A DNA stretch of 64,000 nucleotides from Polytrichum commune (lineage: Eukaryota > Streptophyta > Polytrichopsida > Polytrichales > Polytrichaceae), in assembly GCA_950295325.1 (NCBI GenBank), contig OX485806.1:22506001-22570000 (forward strand). The letters run 5' to 3'. Numbering within the stretch: position 1 is the stretch's first letter; every line of letters begins with the position of its first letter. Under the pieces are notes generated by a model. It searched no databases and was not told the origin of the DNA. It worked only from the letters and a program-made list of their open reading frames with translations. This document shows, one piece after another, positions 3,201 through 63,933 of this stretch. A program made the position numbers and the translations under genes.

Positions 3201-6200
3201 AAGTATTAAGGATGTTGGTAACTTGCTGTGCCCTATCCCGGTCTTGTTTCTCGCGTTTTGCATTTTCTTCAGCAAGCCGTGCCCACACAGAATCCACATT
3301 GGCTTTCAAAACTTTCTCGATTCGCTGGGCCAAAGCACCTTGAACACATGCAACAAATGGCATCTGTCAAGACTTCAAGATTGGGAGCGTGGTGGAAATC
3401 CTGATGAGTTTAAACCTCAATGAACTGATATAGAATGTTCTTTGTTCAAATATCCATACTACTACCTCCAAGCATGCACCGAAAACCTAACCAATATGGA
3501 AGATGTTGTATGCAAAACAGACAAATTCCGACCAAAAATCATGTTGAGTTAGTAGATAACTCTAAAATTGATCAGATTTCATTGCTGCATTCAGCTCATC
3601 AGAATCAACTAACACTTTGCTCTCCATCTTTGAAAAACACCTGAAGGCCATTGTAGCCATGACATTCCTGACATTTGCTTGACTTAAGTTATCCTCTGAC
3701 TCAACATGAATTTTCGTTGGAAGTTGTTTGTTTTGAATGCAACACCTTACCATGTTTGGTAAGTTTTGGGTGCATGCTTGGAGGTAGTAGTGTGGAGGTT
3801 TGAAAGAAGAACATTCTATATTAATCCATTGAGGGTTAAACTCATTTTGGCATGGCAACAGGTGCTAAGAATGAGATTGGCCCTCAATGAATTTATATAG
3901 ATTGCTCTTCATTCAAATTCAAACACTACATGGTTTTGTCTAATTAGTGTGGATTACCATTTGGAGTTACATGTTGGTATAGGTATTTACCGACATTATC
4001 GCTTTTTACTAACTAAAAAAAATCATATTCTTTGGTGTGCATACTAACTACTTATGTTATTTGGGTAACAAAATGATACTCTCAGTAAACAATTATAGCA
4101 ACACGTAACTCCAAATGGTAACCCACACTAATTAGACAAAACAGTGTACCTCTGAGCATGCAAACACAAGTGGAAAATAATTATTGAATTTACATGCAAA
4201 ACAATCAACAGGGGACCAACTTGTGCCAAACAATCTTATTGAGCTAGAGAATAAATCTATTGAATCCTACTTCTTTTAGAAGATGGGAAAGAGTTTGCTT
4301 CACCAGTAGCAAATATTGACAAATCGACCACTTGACTTAATTTGAATACCAATTCCTAATAAAAGCCGAGGCTGATAAAAAATCAGGCGAAGTTTGATGT
4401 TGTCATACTTCATCAACTTCTTTAAATATTTTTGTATTGAGATAGTGTTCTCATGCAATTATTTTCAAAAGATTTAATGCATACCTTCCATTCGTTTGCC
4501 CTCTTTTGCTACTGGAACTGACACCATCCCTCCCATTTTCTGGTACATTTGTTGTTGCAATGTGACCACCTGAAGAGACACGAAACTAGATGTCATTGCC
4601 ACAGTCAAACGAAATCATTGACTGTCAGACAATTACATTGCAATAATGAGATAAGTGGCACCATTCACCGGCTAAGCCAGCTTGCAGTAAACCAGATATG
4701 GAGACAAGCTACCATGAATTTTCTGATCAGAGATGCAAGCATGTTTGCATTCTCTCTAAGTGGTTATACTTTCAGAATCCTGATTCTATTTGAGATGGAA
4801 CAAATGAGCATTCTATGGTAACCTCTACAGGTAGAATCATCCTGCAAAACATCATAAGAGACCGATTTGGTCACCAATGAATTTCAGGGTGGATTTTCAA
4901 TGCAAGATAGCTTAGCCATTGACTGGCTAAGCTAGCTTGCATTGAACCATGAGATATGGAGACAAGCTACAATGAATTTCTGATTGGACATGCAAGCATG
5001 CTTGCATACTCTGAGTTTTAATACTTCCAGAATCTGCATTCTATGGTGACATCTTCTACAGGTAGAATCCTCCTCCATCATTAAAACCTTAAATGTCAGA
5101 GAGGACCGAATTGGTCACCAATCATTCTACAATGTGGACATTTTTCTGACCTTGTGACATGTAAGGGGAAAATGAAAGGGGAAAAAACGAAGGACAAAGG
5201 AGATGGACTCACTAAGAGATTTCTGATCAGAGATGTAAGCAAGCATGTTTGCATATTCTCTGAGTTCTTACACTCTCAGAATCTGCATTCTATTTGAAAT
5301 GGAACAAACGTTGCATTCTATGGTGACATCATCTACAGGTAGAATGAATCATCCTTCAGTCTCTTAACCCTTAAACGTCATAGAGGACCAATTTGGTCAC
5401 CAATGATTTTGCAGTGTGGATTTTTGCTGACCTTGTGACATTTAAGGGTTAAATGAAATGAAGGGGACACAAAAAGAAAGGACAAAGGAAAATGATGGAC
5501 TCACTAAAGAGGACCTGGTTGAGAGCCTCCTGCATGGAAGTCACTTGAGCAATGAGGCCAGGATCTGAAGAAGAAGCCGGAACTGTTGGACTATCAATTG
5601 CAATTGCACCTGAAGAAGGTGTTGCCTGAAACTGCGATGACATGAAATTGCCTCCATTTTTATTCTTGTTTCTCCTTCCTCTGGACCCTACCGAAGTTTG
5701 AGGTTGCACAGCAACAACAGGCACACTGGCTGAAGCAGATGAAGCTGTCCCTTGTAAATTGTGTCCCAGCTCCTGTGAATCATCCATGTGTCTCTCTCTG
5801 TCCTCTAACATATTATCTCCATCTTGAGCATCATCAGTTTCACTTAACTCAGGCAACTCAATTGTCGTGGAAGCATGTCTACTGTGATGAGGATTTGGAT
5901 TTCCATCTTTAAATTCACCTCCCGCTTCACCTTGTCCATCGAAGAACCCTAACAAAGAGGGAATTGATGCTTCATCATCATCTTCCCTGTCTTGATAATG
6001 ATGATGATGATGATGGTGATGATGTGAAGGCTCCTCTGAAACTTGATCAGTTTCATCAACTCCAGATCCTCTAAGGTTCCTTTCCCAGTCTCCAACATCA
6101 ATTAGGTCATGATGCTCAGGAGCTTCATGAGTTTGGATACCTTCTTCCTCCTTTGATCCAGCTGCAAGGATCATAATGTCAGAGGGGCTTACTAAAACAT

Positions 6201-9200: not shown

Positions 9201-10381
9201 CAAAAGACAGCCTAAACTAGAGGATCAGAAGAAAACACATCATCAAGACAGACACTAACAGACAGACAGACAATACCACTGGAGTTGCATAAGTGAATCT
9301 ACCTTGCAAGAAGATGAGTATTCTCTGAGAGGAAAGCCATGTCAGTCACCCTCTGTCACAGATCACAAATGAAACTTTGTTTGGTTGATCTATCCTCACA
9401 GCAGATGACACAAAATTCTTCATAAAACACCACATAAAATAGGTATGATTCCCTTCCGATTCCACGAAACTCTTGTAAAAGTAAAGCAACGTCATCAATC
9501 AACAGGAGCACATGACAAAACCCATCATAACACATGAGAATCGAAGAGCCTGTCTGTCTGTCTGTCTGTCTGTCTGCATGTCTGACCTTTGTGTGGCCCC
9601 GAAGCAATGCTTTCTGCGCACTGTCAATGTTAAGGATCCGGATGGTGCCACCACGCAAGCCATAGCAGATAAATTTCTTGTTCACAGCGATCTGCCTGCC
9701 AAGAACGAACACCTGCTCCGAAGTGTACTTGGTGATTGGGCTAACTTCCAACTGGGGTTGGGCTTCCCCAAGCTTCCGAACATCCACATCGTACCCTATG
9801 TGATCTCCTCTTAGATGCCTCCCTCTCAATACTCTGGGCGGTGGTCTCCCCGGGGATGGTGAAGGTGTAGGTGCCAAGTTGACAGGTGGTGCACTTGGCA
9901 ATGCTGGCGACATGGCTGGAGCAGGAGGGTGACCATGACCATGACCACCACCACCGGAAGAAGAATCCATTCCACCACTCATCATCCCACTACTCACCAT
10001 GCCACTGCCTCCATAATGCATCGAAATTAGGGCAGCTGGAGAAATCAACTTGCTTCGTGATCCTCCTGCTGCAAGAAGATGTGGTGTAGTGGTTGTAACT
10101 CCGAGTTGAGAACCACCTATTAAGGTTGCCTCTTCCTCTTCCTCACCACCACCACCACCACCACCACCACCGCTACCACCTAATCCTAATTCAGTTCCTC
10201 CTGCTCCAGATTGTGTTGTCAGCAGAGCCATAAGACGAGCTCCATCTAGCGGTTGGCTTCCAGGAGTGCTTGGCCGGCTGTTGATGTCTGCAACGGATCC
10301 TAATTGTGGGAAAGATAATGGGAATGAACTGGACATAGGTTGAGAAGCTGGCTTGGAATGGGATGATGACCGTGAAAACAT
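1..10381 (-). CDS. VCS: VARICOSE/EDC4-like mRNA decapping scaffold (13 coding exons, 3' end just cut off)
   Basis: Family role: VARICOSE (animal EDC4/Ge-1) joins DCP2 and DCP1 in cytoplasmic P-bodies and activates removal of the mRNA cap. Exons in transcript order: 10381-9587, 9352-9303, 8830-8677, 8422-8195, 7519-7394, 7272-5515, 4569-4485, 3338-3064, 2545-2426, 2118-1948, 1621-1478, 1261-1118 and 298-<1. All have AG acceptors and GT donors, and the phases join without a break for about 1,449 residues. Arabidopsis VCS is about 1,340. Order of parts: low-complexity N-terminus with RLMALL near residue 50; WD40 region from about 192 ([11 protein letters not shown]) to about 600; a disordered Ser/Pro/His-rich linker; a helical C-terminal half with [19 protein letters not shown]; and a C-terminal domain with [10 protein letters not shown] and [12 protein letters not shown]. 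Donors after exons 1, 3 and 6 are weak (GTC). The stop codon lies outside the window. The true N-terminus may be further upstream. Confidence 0.93.
330..615. repeat. dispersed repeat copy in last VCS-like intron (others at 41,100 and 42,930)
   Basis: The string TTCTACTGATTAGATTTACA, followed by ACAACGAAA and later a TCCAATCTCT block with GTTTATCTTTTGATCCTCA, recurs with modest divergence at about 41,100-41,420 and 42,925-43,250. No coding capacity is seen. Confidence 0.7.
649..990. repeat. foldback (long inverted repeat) element in last VCS-like intron
   Basis: The left arm (TTTGATTCAACGAGAACTTT, GGGGAGTTGGT) is the imperfect reverse complement of the right arm (ACCAACTCCCGACCAAAAGT, CATGTTGAGTTAGAG). 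The centre holds GCACCTCTTGGAATGCCAAA. Related copies lie at 2,600-2,957, 3,405-3,565 (half) and 3,686-4,262. Confidence 0.75.
1118..1261 (-). CDS. VCS: VCS-like exon 12
   Basis: Forty-eight codons read [20 protein letters not shown], then [20 protein letters not shown] and IVSWLCNQ. This matches [31 protein letters not shown] of plant VCS. The acceptor is AAGCAG and the donor CAG/GTAAGT. Confidence 0.93.
1478..1621 (-). CDS. VCS: VCS-like exon 11
   Basis: Forty-eight codons read [20 protein letters not shown], then [12 protein letters not shown], ending GHNPEQ. The position and the L-L-LV pattern fit the less conserved helical segment before the C-terminal domain. The acceptor is CCACAG and the donor CAG/GTATAA. 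Confidence 0.88.
1948..2118 (-). CDS. VCS: VCS-like exon 10
   Basis: Fifty-seven codons read [20 protein letters not shown], then [17 protein letters not shown], ending [15 protein letters not shown] and AFQTGMAEH are among the most conserved VCS strings. The acceptor is TTCCAG and the donor GAG/GTATTT. Confidence 0.93.
2426..2545 (-). CDS. VCS: VCS-like exon 9
   Basis: Forty codons read [20 protein letters not shown], then [20 protein letters not shown]. This is a close match to the VCS block KLEATVARQIQ-QFQTSGKQAL. The acceptor is GCACAG and the donor ATC/GTAAGT, both phase 0. Confidence 0.92.
2600..2957. repeat. second copy of the foldback element
   Basis: Same architecture as the 649-990 copy: CCTTTGACTCAATGAGACTT and GGGAGTTGGT in the left arm, GCACCTCTTGGCATGCCAAA in the centre, and ACCGAAAGTCAAGTTCAATT in the right arm. 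It lies in the intron between exons 8 and 9. Confidence 0.75.
3064..3338 (-). CDS. VCS: VCS-like exon 8 (helical C-terminal region)
   Basis: It encodes [20 protein letters not shown], then [20 protein letters not shown], ending [10 protein letters not shown]. This matches the VCS helical region in which ALWARLQEE and VVP-EK-VSS are conserved. The acceptor is TTCAAG before 3,338. A CAG at 3,364 would extend it in a frame lacking homology. The donor is CAG/GTAGCT. Confidence 0.9.
3686..4262. repeat. third foldback copy, split by a nested MITE
   Basis: The left arm and centre (GACTCAACATGAATTTTCGT, then a GGCATGGCAACAGGTGCTAA variant of the centre) run to about 3,932. The right arm resumes after 4,142 with AACAGGGGACCAACTTGTGC and a final GAGCTAGAGAA. 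The intervening 210 bp is an independent inverted-repeat element. A separate right-half copy lies at 3,405-3,565. Confidence 0.72.
3933..4142. mobile_element. MITE with 37-bp terminal inverted repeats nested in the foldback element
   Basis: Both ends carry GTTTTGTCTAATTAGTGTGG followed by a TTACCATTTGGAGTTAC arm in inverted orientation, with one mismatch across about 37 bp. The total is 210 bp with no ORF. Related elements sharing the ATTAGTGTG-TTACTATTTGGAGTTAC end occur at 12,899, 16,238 and 28,018. Confidence 0.85.
4485..4569 (-). CDS. VCS: VCS-like exon 7 (coiled-coil segment)
   Basis: Eighty-five nucleotides encode [18 protein letters not shown] and [10 protein letters not shown] plus one base. 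It joins MQEALNQ before it and GALAQRIEK after it, reproducing the VCS coiled-coil start. The acceptor is TCTTCAG and the donor AAG/GTATGC. It is too short to show as a separate ORF and was placed by conservation and phase. Confidence 0.9.
4570..5514 (-). repeat. VCS-like intron 6: diverged tandem triplication, about 250 bp per unit
   Basis: A block with TTCTGATCAGAGATG, a TCTACAGGTAGAAT stretch and GGACC-ATTTGGTCACCAATG recurs at about 4,721, 4,978 and 5,221, with spacing about 257 and 243 bp. The last unit ends in GATGGACTCACTAA, which occurs both next to the exon 6 donor (about 5,495) and near 5,200. The duplication therefore began at the exon-intron border and copied the donor-proximal sequence. 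Confidence 0.75.
5515..7272 (-). CDS. VCS: VCS-like exon 6 (end of WD40 region and long disordered linker)
   Basis: This is the largest exon, 586 codons. It starts [16 protein letters not shown] and contains [45 protein letters not shown] and [14 protein letters not shown], all VCS hallmarks. A linker rich in Ser, Pro, Thr and acidic residues follows, with poly-Ser and a run of nine His. It ends [10 protein letters not shown] at a CAG/GTCCTC donor. A stronger-looking GTGAGT lies 10 nt downstream but would break the frame into exon 7. The His run comes from a trinucleotide repeat near 5,998-6,023. Confidence 0.94.
7394..7519 (-). CDS. VCS: VCS-like exon 5 (WD40 region)
   Basis: It encodes [19 protein letters not shown], then [22 protein letters not shown]. 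This corresponds to the VCS segment linking the WD40 'VKIW' strand to 'GPLNREL'. The acceptor is TTGCAG, the donor GCG/GTAAGA, and the exon is 42 codons in phase 0 at both ends. Confidence 0.92.
8195..8422 (-). CDS. VCS: VCS-like exon 4 (WD40 region)
   Basis: It encodes [18 protein letters not shown] through [14 protein letters not shown] to [10 protein letters not shown]. The WD40-type repeat end S-SKDGT is clear. The acceptor is CTGCAG, the donor ACA/GTAAG, and both ends are phase 0. The 3' end of this exon coincides with a family-conserved junction before VRIW. Confidence 0.92.
8677..8830 (-). CDS. VCS: VCS-like exon 3 (WD40 region)
   Basis: It begins TTTGCAG/T, completes the split Ser codon, and reads [27 protein letters not shown] and [12 protein letters not shown]. 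This aligns with the VCS block that carries the PRVCWH motif. The donor is a weak CAG/GTCTTC, but protein conservation and phase both require it. Confidence 0.9.
9303..9352 (-). CDS. VCS: VCS-like exon 2 (50-nt microexon)
   Basis: It encodes [16 protein letters not shown] plus two bases of a Ser codon, matching the conserved VCS segment after RGHT. It is too short for ordinary ORF detection. It was found by looking for the missing WD40 strand between exons 1 and 3. The acceptor is GACAG and the donor AAG/GTAGAT. It ends in phase 2, which the next exon completes. Confidence 0.9.
9587..10381 (-). CDS. VCS: VCS-like exon 1 (low-complexity N-terminus and start of WD40 region)
   Basis: The ATG at 10,381 is the first in-frame ATG of the main frame, which is open without ATG up to a TAG near 10,824. 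Seen in order: Ser-rich stretch, RLMALL motif, poly-Gly/poly-Glu, Gly/His-rich segment, then conserved [12 protein letters not shown] and [18 protein letters not shown], ending ALLRGHTK at an AAG/GTCAGA donor in phase 0. The conserved part is diagnostic for plant VCS. If the upstream exon is real, this exon extends to 10,623. Confidence 0.88.
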
Positions 10382-10811
10382 TGGCTCACAACCACAAGAG
10401 ATGGGATTATTGAGGGATAATATTGTTGCAACAGGAGATGATGGTGGCTGGATCGAAAGGGAAGAAAAGGAAGAAGAAGAAGAAGCTGGCAAGACAAAAC
10501 TACTACAACGAGAAGGACAAGAAGGAGAAGCAGATGAAGATGAATTTGCAGCAGTGGGAGAAGATCCAAGTTGCTCTTCTTCTTGGAGGTTGATGAAATG
10601 CCTGCACTGGGGCCCATGATTCACTGACTGCTGATGATGCTGAGAAGAAGGGAGGGGGTGGAGGAGGAAGAGTATAAGTGTAGAGTAATTCTTCACCCGG
10701 CCGCCTCGCAGATTTGTTGGAACAAACGTACGACGTCGTAATGCTGCTGTTGCTGCGACTGCTCCTGCTACGGGAATTCTTTGCGTCCGTAAAGTTGTTG
10801 GTGGTACATAC

Positions 10812-22469: not shown

Positions 22470-24265
22470 CACCCTAACCTTGATAATGTCACACCCTCCG
22501 TTTCACCAAAAAGTGTGATATAAACAAGGTGTGACATACTTGATAATGTCACATTTTGTGCATAATGTGATATTATCAAAATATATGTAGAAAATCAAAA
22601 TATAATTACAATTTTAAAAAAATAACAAATACGAGACTTCAATGTTTTTGAATGTAAAATCTAATTCAAAATTGTGAATAACAACAAAAGCACATCATAA
22701 TGTGTCATTGAGATCAGGTAAAGACCTCTCACTAGAGACAAAGAAGCTTCTAATGTCACATTGTTTTGTTGATGTTAAATGTGCAACACCAATTCTAATG
22801 AGTTTGTCATGGATTTTTTCCATTTCTAACAACTCATGAGTGCTAAAAATCTGAGAACCTTGGCTAGCCATAAAATTCAAAACATCTTTAGCATATTTTT
22901 GTGCATCGCTTAGCTTCACTACTTTAGACTCATCATCACTGCTATCAACAATCAATGGGTCCACTTCCATGGAATCAAGAACCTGTTTGCCATCTTGCAC
23001 TAATTGCACAAGCTCCTCAATAGAAAATTCCACCTCAAAATCATCTTCACCTTCCATGTTTATGTACTCCAAAGGACAAAGCTTTTCTACAGGCTTGCCT
23101 TCAACATCCAAACCCAAATTTAATGCGGCGATGAGTCTACCCAATTCCAAAGTTGCTTCCTTCATTTTGGACTTCATACGTTCATCAAGATTGTTTATAT
23201 CTGCATTCCACTCTGCAGGCAATATGGCGGACTTTCTCCAACAATTTCTAATGGTTTGATCATCTAATTCATGCCATGCCGCCACACACCATAGCATAGC
23301 TTGAAATACATCAACATTCAATTTCCCCAAATCTTCATTTGAGTTGTTACCAATTTGTTGCAAAGTCCAGGCAACAAGCTTGCGCTTATAACACATCTTG
23401 AATGTTGCAATCACTCCTTGATCCAAAGGCTGAACAACTGAAGTCACATTTGGTGGAAGGAACAAGATAGTGATATGGGAGAGTACAAAAGCATTAAACC
23501 CATCTATAACTTTCTTGACCTCACCATGAATATCATGGCGCCCTGCATTATCCATAATAATGCAAATCTTTCTGTCTTTCAATGCCATTCGTCGGTTCTC
23601 ACTCTTCACCCAATGTGTAAAAACATCACCATTCATCCAGGCTGAATTGTTAGAATAATAGTGTACTGTCCTATTTGGATCAAAATTCCGAGGAAAGCAT
23701 CTGGGACACGCTGCTTTGTGAATGAAAACAAGCTTCAATCGCTCCTTCCCTGAGATATTAGTGCAAAGCCCCAATGTCACACGGTCCTTCTTTTTCTTAT
23801 TTCCTTTCGCCTTCCCAATATTCAAAGTCTTATAAGGAGAGGCTCTATAATACAAACCTGTCTCATCAAAATTGAAGATGTCTTGTGGATCATATTTCTT
23901 CAATATGAATGGGATCTTTGCCATGGCCAATGCAACTCCAACTCCAACTCCATCTGCATCTCCACTTTCTCCATGCAGATAATTGAAATTACACAAGGCA
24001 TCCCACTATGCCGAAAGCAGTGAATAAGAGCTCATTCAATGACCCCCAATATGCTTTGCTTTAGCCCATGCTCACCCATGAACAATAATATCGACCCCAT
24101 GCCCACCCATACAATCCATCCATACTTGATATTATCACATTTACACTACGGATTTTGAAAAAAAATAGTGACATTATCAAGGGTGATAGGGATAATAACG
24201 AGGGAGTTTTACACTATGAAAATCGGTTTCAAACTTTTAGGTGACAATATCAAGGTTAGACTGTG
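22470..24265 (-). mobile_element. Tigger/pogo-type DNA transposon, internally truncated
   Basis: The left end CACCCTAACCTTGATAATGT and the inverted right end (CACAGTCTAACCTTGATATT in reverse) form imperfect terminal repeats. The motif CTTGATAATGTCAC recurs subterminally at 22,539 and, inverted, at 24,168 and 24,241, as expected of transposase-binding sites. The element carries one DDE ORF. At about 1.8 kb it has no room for the DNA-binding domain, so it is probably non-autonomous. The exact ends and the TA duplication are uncertain. Confidence 0.7.
22695..23996 (-). pseudogene. Tigger/pogo DDE-superfamily transposase, N-terminally truncated
   Basis: The open frame covers 433 codons and ends at a stop at 22,695. 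It begins at TTG just after an in-frame TAG; the first in-frame ATG is about 25 codons in. A DDE_1 domain is clear: FNFDETGLYYR (first Asp about residue 44), KKKDRVTLGLCTNISGKERL, IIMDNAGRH (second Asp about 149), TILFLPPNVTSVVQPLDQGV (third Asp about 192), then FKMCYKRKL. The three Asp fit the DDD triad of pogo-like enzymes. The N-terminal CENP-B/HTH DNA-binding domains of intact members are missing. The C-terminal tail is acidic and of unknown role. The catalytic core has no frameshift, so decay is recent or the fragment is retained. Confidence 0.85.
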
Positions 24266-37999: not shown

Positions 38000-39190
38000 C
38001 AGATTGTCCTAACATCTCCTTTGTGTTATTCCATAATGTCACATGCTACACTAATTATGTAGCATCACGCATCCATGTTAACACTATAAAACTCCGTAGT
38101 ATCACGTGCACTTTGGTTGCCACATGCGTGATACTACGGAGTTTAGAGTGTACCACACCATTAAAGTGTTGCACTTTGTGTTATTCCACAATGTCATATG
38201 CTACACTAATCCTATAGCATCACGCACCCGTGTTCACACTACGAAACTCCGTAACATCACGTGAACTTTGGTCGCCACAGGTGTGATACTACGGAGCTTA
38301 GAGTGTACCTCCGTCTCATTTGACATGTACCACACCATTAAAGTGTTGCACTTTGTGTTATTCCACAATGTCATAAGCTACACTAATCCTACAACATCAC
38401 GCACCCATGTTCACACTACGAAACTCCGTAACATCACGTGAACTTTGGTCGCCACAGGTGTGATACTACGGAGCTTAGAGTGTACCTCCGTCTCATTTGA
38501 CATGTACCACACCATTAAAGTGTTGCACTTTGTGTTATTCCACAATGTCATATGCTACACTAATCCTATAGCATCACGCACCCGTGTTCACACTACGAAA
38601 CTCCGTAACATCACGTGAACTTTGGTCGCCACAGGTGTGATACTACGGAGCTTAGAGTGTACCTCCGTCTCATTTGACATGTACCACACCATTAAAGTGT
38701 TGCACTTTGTGTTATTCCACAATGTCATAAGCTACACTAATCCTACAACATCACGCACCCATGTTCACACTACGAAACTCCGTAACATCACGTGAACTTT
38801 GGTCGCCACAGGTGTGATACTACGGAGCTTAGAGTGTACCTCCGTCTCATTTGACATGTACCACACCATTAAAGTGTTGCACTTTGTGTTATTCCACAGT
38901 GTCACATGCTACACTAATCCTATAGCATCACCCACCCGTGTTCACACTATGAAACTCCGTAATATCACGTGAACTTCGGTCGCCACAGGTGTGATACTAC
39001 GGAGCTTAGAGTGTATGTACCTCCGTCCCATTTGACATGTACCACACCATTAAAGTGTTGCACTTTGTGTTATTCCACAGTGTCACATGCTACACTAACC
39101 CTATAGCATCACGCACCCATGTTCACACTACGAAACTCCGTAATATCACGTGAACTTCGGTCGCCACAGGTGTGATACTACAGAGTGGTA
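38000..39190. repeat. 177-bp tandem satellite, about 6-7 units
   Basis: GATACTACGGAG occurs at 38,130, 38,285, 38,462, 38,639, 38,816 and 38,993, and the variant GATACTACAGAG at 39,174. Spacings are 155, 177, 177, 177, 177 and 181 bp. The 155-bp unit lacks a CTCCGTCTCATTTGACATG stretch; the 181-bp unit has a four-base insert. Each unit contains ACTCCGTAA-ATCACGTG and GTGTGATACTACGGAG as imperfect inverted repeats. In the first unit an 18-bp stem is perfect (AAACTCCGTAGTATCACG). No ORF. Confidence 0.93.
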
Positions 39191-39834
39191 GAGTGTACTG
39201 CCTTCTTCGCCTGTCACTGAGCGGCCGCCGACCCCCTGAACGGCTGGTGGTGAAGGTCACAGTTGGCTCCACTGGTGCCAACTGAAAGCCAGTTGAAGAC
39301 ACTCCCTCCCTTCCCTCCCTCCCTCAGACTGATGCCTTAGCTTCGACCTTTTGTCGGGGCGGGCGGGCCGGCTGGCCCCACTCATGCCAAGCTCGTGCAC
39401 GAGCCAACAAGGAGGAGGCCTTATTGCGGAGTCGGCAAAATCAATACAATTTATTTATGCAACCCAATGGGTTAACTAAAAATAGGGAGGCCAGGAATAC
39501 AGGTTGCATTATTTGAGAGGACAGCATGGCTCCTCCAGGCTCGTGGTACATGGTCACATGCTTGCTGCTGCTACCTAACTTACGGTTGTTTGCTGATCAC
39601 AGCACTGGCCCTCCTGGCCCGGGCTGGGCTTAGTGGCAGGTGCGATGCTTTTCGCATAAGGAAACGAAATATCTCCCAAAATATCCTCCGAGTTTATCCG
39701 CCGAGGTGATGATCAAACCTTGCTTTCGTTCGTAAAAGTTGCGGCGACTTGTCAAGTTGGTTGGTGATTTGTTGCCGGCATCGTCGAGCCTTTCGATTTA
39801 TATACATATACATATATATTTGATTCCGAGGCTA
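39191..39834. other. GC-richer unassigned interval
   Basis: It is noticeably richer in GC than its surroundings (GCGGCCGCCG, GGGCGGGCGGGCCGGC). It has a CCCTCCCTTCC tract near 39,305 and no long frame. It could be a regulatory or old gene-derived sequence; nothing specific is recognised. Confidence 0.4.
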
Positions 39835-48239: not shown

Positions 48240-48800
48240 AAGGTATCAAAGAACCTACTCTAGTGTATCAAAATTGTAATACCACTGCAACGTTGATGTT
48301 TGGTGGGTATGGCATCAAAGAACCTACTCTAGGGTATCAAACTTGTAATACCACTGAAACGTTGATGTTTGGTGCGTATGGTATCAAAGAACCTACTCTA
48401 GTGTATCAAAATTGTAATACCATTGCAACGTTGATGTTTGGTGGGTATGGCATCAAAGAACCTACTCTAGTGTATCAAAATTGTAATACCATTGCAACGT
48501 TGATGTTTGGTGGGTATGGCATCAAAGAACCTACTCTAGTGTATCAAAATTGTAATACCACTGCAACGTTGATGTTTGGTGGGTATGGCATCAAAGAACC
48601 TACTCTAGTGTATCAAAATTGTAATACCACTGAAACGTTGATGTTTGGTGGGTATGGTATCAAAGAACCTACTCTAGGGTATCAAAATTGTAATACCACT
48701 AAAACGTTGATGTTTGGTGGGTATGGTATCAAAGAACCTACTCTAGGGTATCGAGATTGTAATACCACTAAAATGTTGATGTTTGGTGGGTATGTCAAGG
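48240..48800. repeat. 69-bp tandem satellite, eight units
   Basis: CCTACTCTAG-type starts occur every 69 bp at 48,254, 48,323, 48,392, 48,461, 48,530, 48,599, 48,668 and 48,737. The period is divisible by three, so a plus-strand frame of 193 codons (48,263-48,844) stays open with a 23-residue repeat (YQNCNTTATLMFGGYGIKEP and TLV). I take that frame as a by-product. The unit and the 200 bp after it match a single copy at 60,785-61,090. Confidence 0.93.
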
Positions 48801-55832: not shown

Positions 55833-55840
55833 ATGCCACC

Positions 55841-57442
55841 CAGTGTTCAAGATTGAAGCCCTCATATGAGTTTCATTTTGAAGGGCTCTAAAATTTGAGC
55901 CCTTCGGTTGAAGGGCTAGTTCAAATTCAAGACGTCAATTCAGTAATATAGAAATAAAATATAAAAAACTCATATTAAACTTATGCATGATTTATATGGT
56001 GCATGCTTCCAATACAATGTGAAGAATTAAGAATCAACCATCTAACTCCACCTCTTCTAGTGATAATGCCCTACGCTTGTTGGTTCTTGTGCCAATTTTC
56101 CAAGATTCAAAAATACTATCCCAATCCATGAATTCAACTCCTAACCCATTTAGACTAACCCTCATTAAAGCATCTAGTGTGTCAAGGTTGAGTCTAGTTC
56201 TCCTTTCACTCTTAACCCAATTTTGCTTTGAAAAACCACGCTCACAAACAACAGTGCTAGTTGGGATCACAAGTATGGCTTGCCATAGCGACATCATAGT
56301 TGGCCAATTAATCATGAACTCCCGGTCATTGCCACAAAAAACCCAAGCTTCTTGCATACTTCGGCGTTCACAAACGGAACATAACATCTCCACGAATTCT
56401 AGCAATTCCGCATTGCATTGATTAACAAGGTCATCGCTCCAACGGAAATGTGTCACCAACCGGTTCAACCATTGTTCCGTTAATGTCCCTCTGTCCAATT
56501 CATCTACGGGATAGTGCTTCGGGCTAAAAAGCCGGGCCGCATTGAAAATGGACAAGTCAAGAAATCGATCATTGAGTGAATCGATGATTTTCTGCACATA
56601 CTGCCTCCCCAACATGATGCATGCCTCCAATGAGCCTCCTACGTCACACTCGGGCATGGAATCATAATGCAAGATATGCATTTTTTCACACCCAAAACTA
56701 TCAACATACAATATTTGCCCATTGGGTACCACCTCGCGGAGAAACTTTCCTAGGTGTTTGGTTGTCAGGCCAAAACTTACACCCAGATAGTGTCTACGAA
56801 ACAAGCTGATTGTTACATCAATCGTAGAAGCTATGCTAGTGATATCTACAAGATCAAACTGAAACTTGCGATTGACCTTATTCAACTCTGATAATATATC
56901 AGCTAGCATGTGAATGAAAAATTGGAACTGAAGAGAAGTTAGATCCTTGTACCATGTGGGTTCTTCAACCTCCCAAATTTCTAAAATTGCAGGCATACAA
57001 AATACCAATCTCTCCATGACCAAGCCACAGGATAACCATCTCACCGAATGGATCTGTAAAGTTGCACGGGATTTCAAATCAGCACTGATTTCACATTGAT
57101 TGAATCACATCACACTACAACACTGACTCAATGCTTACCAAAGAAAGGGTTGGATTCCAATCTTTTGCAAGACCTAAAAAGTTGAATTCCAAGTCAGATC
57201 GATGTTGAATGAATCATTTGCTAGGTGTTGAGGTTGTCACTGTAGCGACCTCCTCGTTGTTGTAACGACCTCCTCGTCACTGTAGCGCTACAGTGTTGAC
57301 GGGTGTAAAAAATTTGAAGACGTCAAGTGAAGTTTTCATTTTGAGTTTGGGGTTGCATTTTGAAGGGCTGTTTTGAGAGAGGTATATTTTGAAGGGCCAA
57401 ATCGCGTTTGAAGGGCATTGAAGACTTCAATCTTGAACACTG
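55841..57442 (-). mobile_element. hAT-superfamily DNA transposon with exact 8-bp target-site duplication
   Basis: The element starts CAGTGTTCAAGATTGAAG (55,841-55,858) and ends with the perfect reverse complement (57,425-57,442). ATGCCACC flanks both sides, at 55,833-55,840 and 57,443-57,450, as an exact 8-bp direct repeat typical of hAT insertion. GAAGGGC motifs recur in both subterminal regions. The only ORF encodes the C-terminal part of a transposase, so the copy is a 1.6-kb internal-deletion derivative. Confidence 0.95.
56034..57077 (-). pseudogene. hAT transposase C-terminal fragment (ZNF862-like lineage)
   Basis: The 347-codon frame ends at 56,034 and starts at a TTG. The first in-frame ATG is about 20 codons in (GLVMERL). 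RWLSCGLVMERLV matches the RWLS start of the DUF4371/RNase-H-like hAT region. The hAT C-terminal dimerisation motif lies at about 264-313: LWQAILVIPTSTVVCERGFS and TRLNLDTLDALMRVSLNG. The BED zinc finger and the N-terminal catalytic Asp are absent, and there is no room for them before the element's right end. The frame itself is undamaged. The lineage name is from general resemblance only. Confidence 0.8.
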
Positions 57443-57450
57443 ATGCCACC

Positions 57451-58434: not shown

Positions 58435-61400
58435 CTGTACAATACATTGCACCGAGATCAGGGAGCTTTTCGAGGCGCTGGACATGAGATTTACCCATAG
58501 TTTCTGAGTCAAACTCTGGGCGGCGAGTTTGCCAAAACATGAGTTTGAGAGAGCTTATGCATAAGTCACCCAATTTTTCTTAAGGCATAAATTAACATGC
58601 TAAAAGTGTGGGGCCGGACTATTAAAACATGCTTTCGAAGGTAGATTGGTCTTAATTGGTTACTATTTCCAACTTGTCCACTTTTCCTAGGATATGAAAA
58701 CACGACATTGATACAAGATGGTTAGCGAATCCAATTCGAGGCTATAGGCATTTTACTCTCACGAGTGTTTTATTCATCATCAAAGTGAAGATTCTCGTGC
58801 TTGTTAAATGGTCATATACGTTCCCCAAATTTTATTGACTATTAAGCCTATAATGGTTACAATATTTTGAGCATACAATCCAATCTCTTTCAAACAATTG
58901 TCTTTATGGTATCCGATTTTGGAGCCACACCTAACCACATACCATTCATATATAGGTGTTCGATTACGATAAGTAACCAAATTAGGCACATCAACCTTAA
59001 CTTGTCATACTATGATTGGCAGACCAAGCTAACCTTGCATAGGCCAAGCTGGGATTGGGGTGGCAAGTCCCATGGACTACCCCTATTTTAGATCCCAAAG
59101 TTCTCTAAAAAATTTTGGATTGAAAGAGGAGGTCCACAAAGTTTCATCCAACTTTCAAAATTAGGTTCCAACACAAGATGCTCTTATGAGCCCTTTAGAG
59201 AAAAGTCCCACAAAGAAGTACCAAGCTAAGAGGTTGGTCCCTCTTTGAAGGACTTTGCAAATACCTCTATTGGGTTAGAACTTTAATGCTAGATACTCGA
59301 TCAATTGGTGATATGAATCTATTTGAGAGACATAGTTATGATGTCAACATAAGGTCCATGTGATTTTATTTGTCCAAAGGTTTACAAAATTCTTCAACAT
59401 CAATTGTGCAATCAATGAGGATTCCGCTAATTTTTTTTTTTTGCAAGCCGTGTATGTTATTTTGGAAATGATTGACATCATAACATTGCTCAATGTTCAA
59501 CTCTTATTCTGTGGGCCCTCAAAATATAATAGTCGGATGCTCAAAAAGCTGTGCAAGAAGACTCATGTTCAGACTGAGCTCCCAACATCCCACAAATATA
59601 TTTGGAAGGTCCATTTCAATAAGTAATGTTATGATGTTCCACAAGTGCAAAAGTATTCAAATTGCATTGAGGATAGAGATAAACCTTTCCCATAGGGTTC
59701 CGTGGGAGTGCCTCCCATACTATCAAATGCTGAGGAATCTGTAGACACCAACCAACAAGAATATACCAAAGCATGTCAACATCTCATTTCTTGGATGTAT
59801 GATCTTAAGGACATCTGACAAAAATTGATCAGCTAAAGATAACGATGTGGGGAAAGCTTCCTTTCAGTCATAAAAATCCTCATATTCATCAAGCAGTTAC
59901 CAAAATTAGGTGGCAGATTTCACTAAGAGCATAAGTCATAGCTTAATCCAGATTGGTAGTGTATGTAACACTTGAATCTCGATCAAGTAATGACAATCAC
60001 TGTAGTTTGCTTCAACTAAACCTACATCATTTAATAACATTTTAAAAAGATCTGATACAGATTGATCAGATAAATGATGTGCTGCATGCTATTCCAGTCA
60101 ATCTCAAAATCCCTCATATTCATTGTGCAGTTACTATTATCAGGTGGCAAATTCACTGAAAGTATAAGTCAGCCTAATCTGGATCGGTAGTGTATGTAAC
60201 ACTTGAGCCTTTGATTATGTAATGACATTAAGTCTAGTTTGCTTCAACTAAACCTACATCATTTAATAACATCTCAAGAAGATCTGTTACAGACCAATCA
60301 GCTAAAGATAATGATGTGCTACAAGCTATTCCAATCAATTCAAAAACCTTCATGTTCATCATGTAATTACTAATATTAAGTAAAAAATTCACATAAGAGT
60401 AAAAGTCATAGCCTAATCGGGATGATATGTTGGTTTAGAGAAAAAAAACACCTTGTAAGGGGCCAGCAGAGGGCCTGCCCATTTACGTAGAGCCTCCAAA
60501 GTGAGAACTGGTTCCCATTTTGCAGCCGCCAAGGCAGCCTTTGATTCATGAGGAACGATAATGGCCGCAATGAGCTCTCCATAGTCCTTGTCAGGAATAC
60601 CCAACACGGCGCACTCTGCTATGACAGGATGCTGCAGATTGAGCCATAGGATTACAAGAGTGCTAATTAGAATGTTGATGTTTATTCAACAGGAAAATAG
60701 ATTAGAGAATTGAGCATGATTACACTTCTTAGGGGTAAAAACCAGTGTTGGTCTGATATCGTCTTTTGTTGATACAATTCAGATGACTATAATGAGGATT
60801 TCTCATTTTTTTTGATACCAATAGGGTATGGGTGTTTTCGATACCATTTGGGTCTACATACCATGCAAGAACCTTAATAACTACGCAGAATCGCCCCAGT
60901 ATCAATATGGTTTAGACTGGTATTGACCCAAATAATAACTTGGGTGTATAAAGATTCTCTCACCTTGACATACCCACCAAATATCAATATTTGACTAGTA
61001 TTATAATTTTGATACCCATGGGTAGGATCTTTGATACCAATATTGATGTTGATTATTGATACCCTGCATTCACCTATATACCATACCAACATTGGCAGAA
61101 ACCAATGTAGGCTGCTTGTACATGTTGTGGCTGGGTATCAATACAATTTTCATGTGGTTCTGGACTACAGGTTACCCATGGGTCTGAAAAGAAGAAATAA
61201 TCGACCAGTACTGACATATGTCATATATAAATATCAAATAGAATGTTGCTATTGATAACCTTCAGTTGTGAAGACGCAAATGTCAACAGTAGATGCCTCT
61301 GATCTCAAGAGTCAAAACAAGGTTAAATATGATATCATCATTTCCATTCTATTAAGATATTATTGTAAGATGATACTTTTTTTATTTCGATAACTCAGAA

Positions 61401-63933
61401 TTGAGGATAACAACAATAGAAATTAATGAGTTGAGATAATTGACTGAGTTGGGGAACTACCAACTATTCTTCCAATATATTCATAAACCCGGCTATGAAA
61501 GGAGTGTTTTTCTAACAAATTCATAACATACTATCATTGACTTCTCCATGACTTTCACAATTTGTAACCATGATAGAAACTTGATAACCAACCAACACTG
61601 GTAGAAACCCATCACTTGAACTGAATAATGTAGATTTGACTTTATTATCATCATGATTTCTGAACCAACAGGGGGTTGAGCCACCCATGCCATTCACATG
61701 CCCTTCACATGCCGACCGCATATTGAATGGCAACTCCAGGACAGAAAATAGCAACCAATGAAACATGTAATTTGCATTCAACCCAGTCATTAAGGAGGCA
61801 AGAATGTATATCAGGATACCTCGAGCAGAACAGCTTCAATTTCGAGAGATGAGATTTTATAGCCCCCTGACTTAATTATGTCCACACTTGTCCCTGTAGT
61901 GAAACAATGGCAGTTGAAATCTGATACTCTATTCACCACTTCCTAAGTGCCAATACATAGATTTCTCATGCAAAATCCAGAAATTTGGGGTACACCAAAC
62001 AAAGGAAGGTAAGCTAGGAGATTAGAAAGCAAAAATACCAAACAAAGGATTCTCACAGAAGCACCAAGGACACAAGTCATTGGCATAACGATTCTAGCAC
62101 TTTCAGAGGTTGATGAGAAATAGGGTCCATTGTATACATACGTCCAAGAATTTTGTAATATCCATTTTCTCTAGTAACTGTGTCCCCAGTTTCGAAGAAT
62201 CCATCATCCCTGAAAGATTGACTTGTAATCTGCCAAACCCAAGTCCCCAATGGTGTTCATAAGAAAATAAAAGTTACATCCACCCTACCATAAACCACAA
62301 TGAGCTGCATATTTATTTCAGGCCTATTGAATTTCAAGAGATTTTTATTGTGTACCTGTGGTAATCTCCAATATTCATGAAACATTCCAGGACTCTTAAT
62401 GCACAGATTTCCAATACCCTCATCACTCTCCTCATCTTCTTCGATCAGCACCTGAAATCATTTACACACAGGAATTTTACTCAAGTTACTCTTTGCAACT
62501 TCAAGAAGAGGCAAGATTGAACTGTCAATAATAATTTAGCTATAGAGATTTCTCCAAACCTTCTTCTAATAACATAAATTTGGACCAGATGGGTCACTGC
62601 ATAGTGAAGGAGTGGATACAATTTAGTAAAATCTATCTCAAAGATAACAAAATGAATCAAAATTATCAACCTCAATGCCAGGTAAAGGCTCCCCAACAAA
62701 ACCTGGCCTCCTCTCACCACTAAGAGGATTCGACAGTGCCATGCCAAACTGCAAAAAGAATGGGCAATGTTATATTCCTTTGTTAGGAGCCACGAAGCAC
62801 ATAAAGCTTCATGGTGGATTAGAAGCAACAGTATAGTATAAGTCTGTCACACTCAAGAGATAAGAACACGATTACAAGGGGTCAAATAAACATCACGACA
62901 CTACATGATAGACATATTTCACATTAAAAGAGCACTGTAGTAATTGAATAAAATCAAAATAAGGCCTAACCCTCAGAGACTAAGGAATTATTCCATATTA
63001 CCTCAGTCATTCCATAACGTTCGAGAAGGCGATGGCCTGTTACATTCTCCCATTTCTCCATCACTGGTTGTGGGAGTGCTGACGATCCACACATCTGGTG
63101 CCAACAAACCAATATTGTCACTTAAAACACTGTGCTGGATTTTGCTTTGTTATTGGGCGGGCTTTTTTGTCCTGAATTCCCACCTTATTCAGGGCATAGC
63201 AATACAGCAAGACCAGGGCATTATGTGGGCACATAATGCGGCCGGCTCAAAATCCAGCATTGGGTTTTAAGTAGGGCAGGACCTTGCAAAGCGGGCTTCC
63301 TGCCCTCAAGGCAAGGCCCTTCATTTCTGGAAAGCCCTCCCCTTAGGGCATTACCTTATGCTTACATATCCTGAACAATAGACAATATTCTAAAGGGCAA
63401 CCTTTTAGAAATCCTTTACACTACAAAGGTGGTTGTGGTTGTGATTGTGATTGTGATTTACCACCACAATCAACCACAACTATAGTTTTTGTCATTCACA
63501 CTTCCTGTGGTGCAAATCCTTGTGGTTGTGGGTGATGGTGGGATCAGATTTCCAGATCGCAATCTATCAATGGTCTAGGCTCTTGGACTCGAGAGGAGAC
63601 CACTATCTGTATTTATTTATCCTTGTTGGCCTTGGTTGTAGGGCTGAAGTTGTTGCCTCCTCAACTTTCTTACTGGTCCTTGACTTTGAAGCTCTCTAGT
63701 GGTGCCACATGAGCACAAACAACCACTCAGAATCCTAAGTTTGATGGGGTAGAGGGTGGTTAAGGTTATGGTTAGCATTGATTATGCCTTTTCCATGGAA
63801 ATAGAACCAAAGAAAGTAAACCACAAAAATTTACCATAAGGCGCAACTTGGTAGCAGCCAAGGAATACTCTTTCTGGTCCTCCTCATCCAGGAGGTCATA
63901 CCCTTGAAGGAGTCGCACATAAATTGTTGGCAC
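58381..63933 (-). CDS. AAE13: malonyl-CoA synthetase-type acyl-activating enzyme, C-terminal half (9 exons; N-terminal part outside window)
   Basis: Family role: AAE13/ACSF3/MatB enzymes join malonate to CoA with ATP, giving malonyl-CoA, AMP and PPi; in plants they act in cytosol and mitochondria and clear malonate. Exons in transcript order: 63933-63835, 63094-63002, 62748-62671, 62451-62356, 62229-62142, 61893-61820, 60631-60452, 59738-59685 and 58434-58381. Phases join through 271 residues to a TGA. Adenylate-forming motifs are all present: [30 protein letters not shown] (hinge) and LPRNPMGK with the C-domain catalytic Lys. [19 protein letters not shown] is diagnostic of the malonyl-CoA synthetase branch. 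The ATP-binding P-loop-like motif and any targeting peptide lie upstream of the window. Confidence 0.93.
58640..58990. repeat. dispersed repeat in last AAE13-like intron
   Basis: GGTTACTATTTCCAACTTGT, ATACAAGATGGTTAGCGAAT and TCAAAGTGAAGATTCTCGTG match the 30,070 and 44,150 copies in the same order. The right end carries CATTCATATATAGGTGTTCG, a variant of the recurrent CACTCAAATATAGGTGTCC motif. Confidence 0.72.
59685..59738 (-). CDS. AAE13: AAE13-like short exon with catalytic-Lys motif
   Basis: Eighteen codons read [18 protein letters not shown], with the conserved Lys needed for adenylation at the end. The acceptor is CTACAG and the donor AAG/GTTTAT. It is too short for ORF scans and was found by searching for the missing motif. 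Confidence 0.93.
59816..60430. repeat. intronic tandem triplication, about 235 bp per unit, in the AAE13-like gene
   Basis: TTGATCAG or its variant occurs at 59,825, 60,062 and 60,295, spacing about 237 and 233 bp. Shared strings include TAGTGTATGTAACACTTGA, TTGCTTCAACTAAACCTACA and CATCATTTAATAACAT. Units have diverged visibly. They lie between the 60,452 and 59,738 exon borders. Confidence 0.85.
60452..60631 (-). CDS. AAE13: AAE13-like exon (C-terminal domain)
   Basis: Sixty codons read [20 protein letters not shown], then [10 protein letters not shown] and [13 protein letters not shown]. The acceptor is TCTGCAG and the donor AAG/GTGTTT. The [10 protein letters not shown] string is typical of the family. 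Confidence 0.95.
60785..61090 (-). repeat. single copy of the dispersed repeat that seeds the 69-bp satellite
   Basis: Read on the minus strand it contains TTTGGTGGGTATGTCAAGGT, GAGAATCTTT and TTCTTGCATGGTA in the same order as 48,785-48,960. It also has one diverged 69-bp unit (GATATTTGGTGGGTATG; ATCAAAGATCCTACCCATGG). Many GGTATCAA/TTGATACC strings occur. It lies in an intron of the AAE13-like gene. Confidence 0.8.
61820..61893 (-). CDS. AAE13: AAE13-like exon with hinge motif
   Basis: Two bases complete Arg, then [20 protein letters not shown] and VLLE. This is the hinge motif around which the C-terminal domain rotates between half-reactions. The acceptor is CTACAG and the donor GAG/GTATCC. 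Confidence 0.94.
62142..62229 (-). CDS. AAE13: AAE13-like exon with TGD motif
   Basis: It encodes [20 protein letters not shown], then ENGYYKILG plus one base. The Asp of TGD binds the ribose hydroxyls of ATP in this superfamily. The donor C/GTATGT is phase 1, and the codon is completed by the next exon to Arg. Confidence 0.93.
62356..62451 (-). CDS. AAE13: AAE13-like exon
   Basis: It encodes [20 protein letters not shown], then [21 protein letters not shown] is conserved in plant AAE13. The acceptor is TTTCAG and the donor CAG/GTACAC. Confidence 0.93.
62671..62748 (-). CDS. AAE13: AAE13-like exon
   Basis: It encodes [20 protein letters not shown], then PLPGIE, matching MA-SNPL-G-R--G-VG-PLPG of the family. 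The acceptor is TTTGCAG and the donor a weak GAG/GTTGAT. It is 26 codons. Confidence 0.93.
63002..63094 (-). CDS. AAE13: AAE13-like exon with RYGMTE motif
   Basis: It encodes [20 protein letters not shown], then [11 protein letters not shown]. This is the adenine/acyl-binding core motif of the family. The acceptor is CACCAG and the donor GAG/GTAATA. Confidence 0.95.
63095..63834. other. AAE13-like intron with repeat-like inserts
   Basis: It holds a GC-rich stretch bounded by inverted TGCTGGATTTTG (about 63,131) and CAAAATCCAGCA (about 63,247), then a GGTTGTGATTGTGATTGTG tract mirrored by CACAATCAACCACAAC (63,430-63,480). Both look like small inserted inverted-repeat elements. Confidence 0.5.
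63835..63933 (-). CDS. AAE13: AAE13-like exon (first in window)
   Basis: It encodes [20 protein letters not shown], then [13 protein letters not shown], matching the VPTMY-RLI-GY block and the KLRLM strand before the GSSALP motif. The acceptor is ATGCAG and the donor ATG/GTAAAT. It is 33 codons in phase 0. Confidence 0.92.

Follow-up and report, generated by a model that had tools for sequence, protein, structure and literature searches.

A 1602-bp transposable element found in a 64,000-nucleotide stretch of Polytrichum commune DNA (contig OX485806.1; hereafter the window) is very probably non-autonomous and Ds-like, having arisen by internal deletion within a hAT family that was active recently, and the transposase frame that remains in it is then a passenger. 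The features on which this reading is based are collected in Table 1. The window contained 248 pairs combining an exact terminal inverted repeat (TIR) of at least 6 bp with an exact 8-bp target site duplication (TSD), the longest of which was the 18-bp pair of the element; the next 24 in order of length were AT-rich and did not exceed 13 bp. When 60 windows were simulated with a Markov model, the longest TIR accompanied by an exact 8-bp TSD was 10 bp. The TIRs, CAGTGTTCAAGATTGAAG and its partner, were identical at 18 of 18 positions and, on extension, at 22 of 24, and the TSD ATGCCACC was exact on both sides, as an earlier note on this DNA had described. A 9-mer, TTGAAGGGC, occurred six times in the window (both strands), and five of the six copies lay 26–74 bp from the tips of the element. 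In the accessible text of PMC10368747 the transposase sites of hAT elements are subterminal, placed like the copies observed here, and these repeats are putative transposase sites. The random control for this clustering was modest: 60 of 4719 pseudo-elements placed at random showed a similar one (a 9-mer present at least four times in the ends and at most eight times in the window). A 20-bp tandem repeat was also present in the 5' non-coding part, and 1583-bp sister copies lack 20 bp inside it.

Table 1. Coordinates of the element, its parts and the neighboring gene in the window
Feature	Position	Strand	Remarks
Internally deleted hAT element, 1602 bp	55841–57442	-	Corresponds to bases 1–348 + 4823–6053 of the 6053-bp full-length copy L060
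Left 8-bp TSD ATGCCACC	55833–55840	.	Exact
Right 8-bp TSD ATGCCACC	57443–57450	.	Exact
Left 18-bp TIR CAGTGTTCAAGATTGAAG	55841–55858	+	3' end relative to the transposase frame
Right 18-bp TIR	57425–57442	-	5' end relative to the transposase frame; pairs with CAGTGTTCAAGATTGAAG
Subterminal repeat TTGAAGGGC	55878–55886	+	
Subterminal repeat TTGAAGGGC	55908–55916	+	
Truncated transposase frame, 356 codons stop to stop (57104–56037) plus stop codon	56034–57104	-	Stop-free
Deletion junction, 3-bp filler	57072–57074	.	Loss of about 4.47 kb relative to the full-length element
20-bp tandem repeat	57236–57284	.	5' non-coding part of the element
Subterminal repeat TTGAAGGGC	57360–57368	+	
Subterminal repeat TTGAAGGGC	57389–57397	+	
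Subterminal repeat TTGAAGGGC	57408–57416	+	
Exons of acyl-CoA synthetase-like gene	59600–63020	-	Motifs near 63019, 62196, 60601 and 59705

The genome (408 Mb, 64 contigs) was surveyed for the TIR allowing up to two mismatches, and 911 + 915 matches were observed; the pattern in reverse, used as a control, gave 21 + 15. The earlier note had called for such a search and had held that the absence of other copies would refute its reading; many copies with these termini exist. Distinct insertions with exact TSDs numbered 57 (loci L001–L081), with TSDs that were all different and identical TIR pairs in 52; four of them belong to a sister lineage (a 4362-bp, a 1083-bp and two 1106-bp copies). The 57 were chosen for an exact TSD among loci made up of the first TIR matches listed and the best protein matches, and are thus a non-random sample. 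Altogether 90 partly overlapping loci were inspected, of which 73 had an exact TSD pair and 17 had none, some of the latter having only one end within the stretch fetched. These 17 comprise L001 and L002 (ends present, TSDs mismatched), L023, L059 and L065 (both ends present, TSDs that do not match), L053, L055, L062, L070 and L088 (one end missing in the stretch fetched), L003, L004, L043, L044 and L046 (no usable pair of ends), and L089 and L090, which are the flank loci returned by the joined-flank search described below. In the protein search 114 of 2037 candidates were scored, and class counts taken from the matches listed are lower bounds. Searches elsewhere gave no matches in a viral contig collection (by TIR and by protein), in plasmids and phages (by protein), in NCBIfam, or in Rfam at the gathering threshold; eight pattern matches in a collection of genome contigs, by protein, were not confirmed, and a literature search with the TIR string returned nothing related, as judged by title.

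The deletion junction of the element was found 18 times in the genome, and its reversed control not once. Both ends and an exact TSD could be read in 16 of these 18 copies, the exceptions being L053, which diverges from the element toward its 3' end, and L088, whose second end was not found in the stretch fetched; in L066 the junction is present with small changes. Ten copies were exactly 1602 bp long, with pairwise divergences of 0–0.87%. One is a twin of the window copy, identical over all 1602 bases, situated about 10 Mb away on the same contig with TSD CCCACGGC and in unrelated flanks (24–30% identity). Zero differences in 1602 bases set a 95% upper bound on divergence of about 0.19%. Plant neutral rates are near 6 × 10−9 per site per year, at which the twins would have separated less than about 0.2 million years ago, an age that gene conversion could mimic. 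Protein identities of 91–93% had suggested that the 1602-bp class includes an older set of copies; this idea was discarded, as the copies in question carry 8–13 substitutions and frameshifts account for their lower protein identity. A whole-genome search with the two flanks joined matched only the flanks themselves, and no empty paralogous site was found. The youth of the copy and its mobilization by a full-length partner are thus supported by the identical twin, the 18 junction copies and the open-frame full-length relatives described below. By these sequence comparisons, a young window copy mobilized in trans is well supported, and the junction copies together with the twin point to movement in trans of a Ds-like derivative.

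Full-length relatives with open frames, candidates for the donor that the earlier note had proposed to look for, are present in the same genome. Four copies of about 5.5–6.1 kb have TIRs, exact TSDs and open frames of 682–781 codons: L016 (5500 bp, 781 codons), L060 (6053 bp, 759 codons), L061 (5467 bp, 682 codons) and L063 (5680 bp, 753 codons). In addition, L059 has both ends and a 765-codon open frame with a TSD that finds no match, the frame of L062 is split into 458 + 299 codons, and L064 (4362 bp) represents a related lineage with about 76% DNA identity to L060 over the shared 3' part. The L060 protein contains a zf-C17orf113 domain at residues 106–158, a sub-threshold DUF4371 match and a Dimer_Tnp_hAT match (E = 3.2e-6); its motifs DESTD (265), TDGA (332), CIAH (361), RWLS (425) and ERGFS (691) were assigned by eye against residues given in the accessible part of PMC6027215. 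A phmmer search of the full-length frame against PDB sequences gave no hAT match at E values up to 1. The four full-length copies agree over their last 2.9 kb and roughly over their first 0.25 kb; in the 5' interior, a stretch of 2–3 kb upstream of the transposase, L063 aligns to L060 and L016 and L061 are unalignable to it. That these full-length copies are active seems probable.

The window copy is colinear with L060 at both ends, with a single internal deletion; identity is 94.0% over segment 1–348, a value that includes two mismatches and a gap of 20 bp within the tandem repeat, and 99.4% over segment 4823–6053. Other derivatives fall into classes of 391–392, 949, 1083–1106, 1145, 1175, 1253, 1328, 1359–1393, 1553, 1565–1602, 1780 and 1965 bp. 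Those aligned to L060 have different breakpoints and, leaving aside rearranged filler and short differences in repeat length, are mostly 98–100% identical to it; identity is lower for the 392-bp copy (84–90%) and for the 1083–1106-bp sister copies (76–82%). Interrupted repair of an excision gap is expected to leave micro-homology or filler at the junctions. Eight junctions other than that of the window copy had micro-homology of 4, 5, 6 and 10 bp in four cases, a 9-bp filler in two, and 0 or 1 bp in two. The classes also differ in what is left of the transposase: fewer than about 20 of its codons are left in the 392- and 949-bp derivatives, a TAA interrupts the matched part in 14 of the 14 rows with the 1328-class pattern among the matches listed (nine of these read as 1328 bp), and stops occur in three of the six rows of the 1553-bp class among the matches listed. 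The sister lineage (full-length L064, and L079–L085) has derivatives of its own, of 1083–1106 bp, with a C-terminal frame of 229–236 codons; its rows, at about 80% identity, were stop-free in 30 of 44 cases among the matches listed and contained stops in 14 (counted by eye).

A pathway leading to the window copy can be proposed on this basis. A full-length element, about 6 kb long, would have lost about 4.47 kb internally, most likely by interrupted gap repair after excision, as the filler and micro-homology at junctions suggest. The product retained the terminal and subterminal repeats at both ends as well as the last 345 transposase codons, and would then have been moved in trans by the transposase of intact relatives. 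Its arrival at the window site would be very recent, and the remaining frame, as a passenger, would still be open since the copy is young.

The frame itself agrees with the single undamaged frame reported in the earlier note, being one stop-free frame on the minus strand. The reported length of 347 codons was not reproduced: the frame has 356 codons from stop to stop, and 327 from its first ATG, which is codon 30, at 57017. In 20 simulated windows, runs without a stop reached 171 codons at most. Residues 12–356 of the frame correspond to the last 345 codons of the transposase (full-length residues 415–759), residue 11 is a filler codon, and residues 1–10 translate what used to be 5' DNA of the element, located upstream in the full-length copy. 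Residues 1–414 of the 759 are absent, which bears out the reported loss of the N-terminal half; the zinc finger, both catalytic aspartates and the CxxH motif are gone, and an RW (frame residues 22–23) and a catalytic-type E (residue 288) are kept. The statement that the dimerization domain is preserved holds in the sense of Pfam, the frame matching Dimer_Tnp_hAT with E = 1.1e-6, and fails in the sense of Hermes, the N-terminal half being absent: according to the available portion of PMC10368747, the intertwined dimerization domain of Hermes forms a domain of its own, connected to the N-terminal BED domain. An AlphaFold model of the 356-residue frame alone had a mean pLDDT of 32 and was set aside.

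Selection on the frame was assessed from variants within the derivative classes. Thirteen copies of the 1602-bp class had similar densities of variable sites in the frame (27/1068) and elsewhere (16/534), and the frame variants were 17 nonsynonymous, 10 synonymous and 0 stops; these copies were chosen for open frames, so that the absence of stops is uninformative (L022, L053, L086, L087 and L088 are omitted from the count, and L066 was aligned and left uncounted). Neutral fractions of 0.636, 0.306 and 0.058 for nonsynonymous, synonymous and stop changes were derived from the 1602-bp class variants and applied also to the other classes. The corresponding counts were 4:2:0 in the 1328-bp class (8 copies; L023 omitted, its frame not being recognized), 8:7:4 in the 1553-bp class (6 copies), and 28:11:0 in the 1106-bp class (7 copies of 1083, 1090 and five times 1106 bp, picked for open frames and all from stop-free rows); variants of the seven sister copies read look neutral. 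Pooled, the classes gave 57:30, corresponding to an omega of about 0.91, which excludes an omega of 0.1 and makes 0.5 unlikely (P = 0.004); when the 1106-bp class was removed, an omega of 0.5 became compatible (P = 0.12). Class estimates were 0.55–0.96 for the 1553-, 1602- and 1328-bp classes, from small counts. These values fit a frame that varies as neutral DNA does, the small counts leaving room for weak constraint. For the full-length L060 and L064, compared over 650 codons, dN was 0.13 and dS 1.26 (NG86), a dN/dS of about 0.10 with dS near saturation; YN00 gave 0.12 and 1.71. Because of this low dN relative to dS and of the neutral-looking variants in the derivatives, the complete transposase is taken to be under selection and the leftover frames not visibly so.

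The 18 junction copies were also inspected for the integrity of the frame, which was whole in 13, carried a +1 frameshift in three and a TGA in L053, and was left unscored in L088. The three frameshifted copies (L022, L086 and L087) have the frameshift in common, at element position 756, and three different TSDs; therefore, a copy with a broken frame kept moving. In simulations of neutral decay the frame survived 1% divergence in 17–64% of cases and 3% divergence in 1–24%, depending on the assumed indel rate, and the 13 intact frames fit young copies.

The element lies 3' of the last recognized exon (near 59705) of the acyl-CoA synthetase-like gene, on whose strand its frame also runs. The piece at 60416–60685 matches acyl-CoA synthetases, luciferases, and oxalyl- and malonyl-CoA ligases in the PDB. 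The last exon of this gene was sought by motif and not found, and the element sits either in the last intron or downstream of the gene. Elsewhere in the window, a 436-codon stop-free frame on the minus strand (22698–24005) contains a DDE_1 endonuclease domain (E = 9.3e-35) and is presumably a pogo/Tigger-like transposase. Pieces of an enhancer-of-mRNA-decapping-4-like gene were recognized at 2–388 and 9359–10810, both on the minus strand (EDC4_C, E = 2.9e-14; Ge1_WD40 below the cut-off), and long tandem arrays at 38019–39198 (unit of 177 bp), 48245–48794 (69 bp) and 59873–60423 (232 bp).

The earlier note had viewed the undamaged frame as a possible inhibitor of active elements or a step toward domestication, a suggestion for which the neutral-looking variants and the frame-broken lineage with at least three insertions leave no support. 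Were the truncated C-terminal protein expressed, it could act as a poison subunit inhibiting the full-length transposase, and it does retain the hAT C-terminal region of Pfam, to which part of a Hermes-type insertion domain may be added; in the accessible text of PMC10368747, what holds the Hermes multimer together is the exchange between dimers of a helix that belongs to the insertion domain. Such a role is nevertheless unlikely, given that the zinc finger and the N-terminal half are lost and that the variants in the frame look neutral. The open frames in 13 of the 18 junction copies are what weak selection would also predict, but frames are broken in four of the 18, the sub-lineage with the +1 frameshift made its insertions regardless, and the stops in the 1553-bp class, the TAA of the 1328-bp pattern and the few codons left in the 392- and 949-bp derivatives speak against a maintained product. 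It is similarly doubtful that many independent deletions have left C-terminal fragments which, once translated, attenuate the full-length transposase, in which case the family would be restrained by its own debris. Among the papers listed in searches that covered mainly open-access literature, none on truncated hAT transposases as inhibitors was recognized by title and the start of the abstract.

That the copy is becoming a host gene is very improbable. Its frame is open and follows the acyl-CoA synthetase-like gene on the same strand, but TIRs and TSDs are still complete, variants throughout the class look neutral, and the identical twin marks a copy too young for selection to show. An old, immobile relic with ends alike by chance is hardly conceivable: simulated windows never gave a TIR with TSD longer than 10 bp, and this reading had already been refuted by the identical twin and by the 18-copy junction. 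The preferred reading remains that of a mobile deletion derivative carrying a fragment that is probably without function. A half-transposase frame found intact in a young copy calls for caution: neutral youth predicts it, and on its own it points neither to an inhibitor nor to domestication. As for the family, large, recently active and with open-frame full-length copies, it is a candidate active transposon system in this species.

Ds elements are internal deletion derivatives of maize Ac. Like Ds and other non-autonomous hAT copies, the window copy keeps its ends with TIRs and subterminal repeats and an 8-bp TSD, and like Ds it has lost an internal stretch including the catalytic core while full-length relatives exist in the same genome. 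Unlike Ds, the 1602-bp class keeps an open C-terminal transposase frame, and the transposase of the family has a zinc finger of the zf-C17orf113 type. Membership in hAT follows from the exact 8-bp TSD and the C-terminal Dimer_Tnp_hAT region of the encoded protein; a complete transposase, as expected of an autonomous element, is lacking in the window copy, and so are the loss of TIRs and TSDs and the purifying selection expected of a domesticated gene, its ends being intact and its nonsynonymous to synonymous counts fitting neutrality. The TIR starts with CAGTG, which fits the hAT consensus start (T/C)A(A/G)NG given in the accessible part of PMC6027215 and departs from the plant pattern [T/C]AGNGNNG at the last base. 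The target preference nTnnnnAn of the Ac group, also that of Hermes, was matched by 11 of the 57 TSDs, and nnnTAnnn of the Buster group by two. The 57 TSDs are biased toward a palindrome that reads roughly not-T, Y, Y, S, S, R, R, not-A; in the symmetrized set, position 2 is T in 46% and position 7 is A in 46%. This pattern differs from that of Buster and fits nTnnnnAn only partly.

Among animal systems, the Drosophila hAT elements BuT2 and Mar (Tip and Buster groups) have, according to the available portions of PMC3942097 and PMC3517528, short internal-deletion derivatives that spread with conserved TIRs and TSDs. The copies described here are alike in this respect, and differ from them in host and in TIRs. 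Hermes of Musca domestica offers a comparison at the level of the protein. Residues D180, D248 and E572 matter for its activity (PMC2533014 and PMC6027215, accessible parts), and Hermes 550–599 aligns with the retained C-terminal stretch, placing E288 opposite position 572 in a weak match (E = 0.25). Unlike the Hermes transposase, the window copy has neither zinc finger nor catalytic aspartates.
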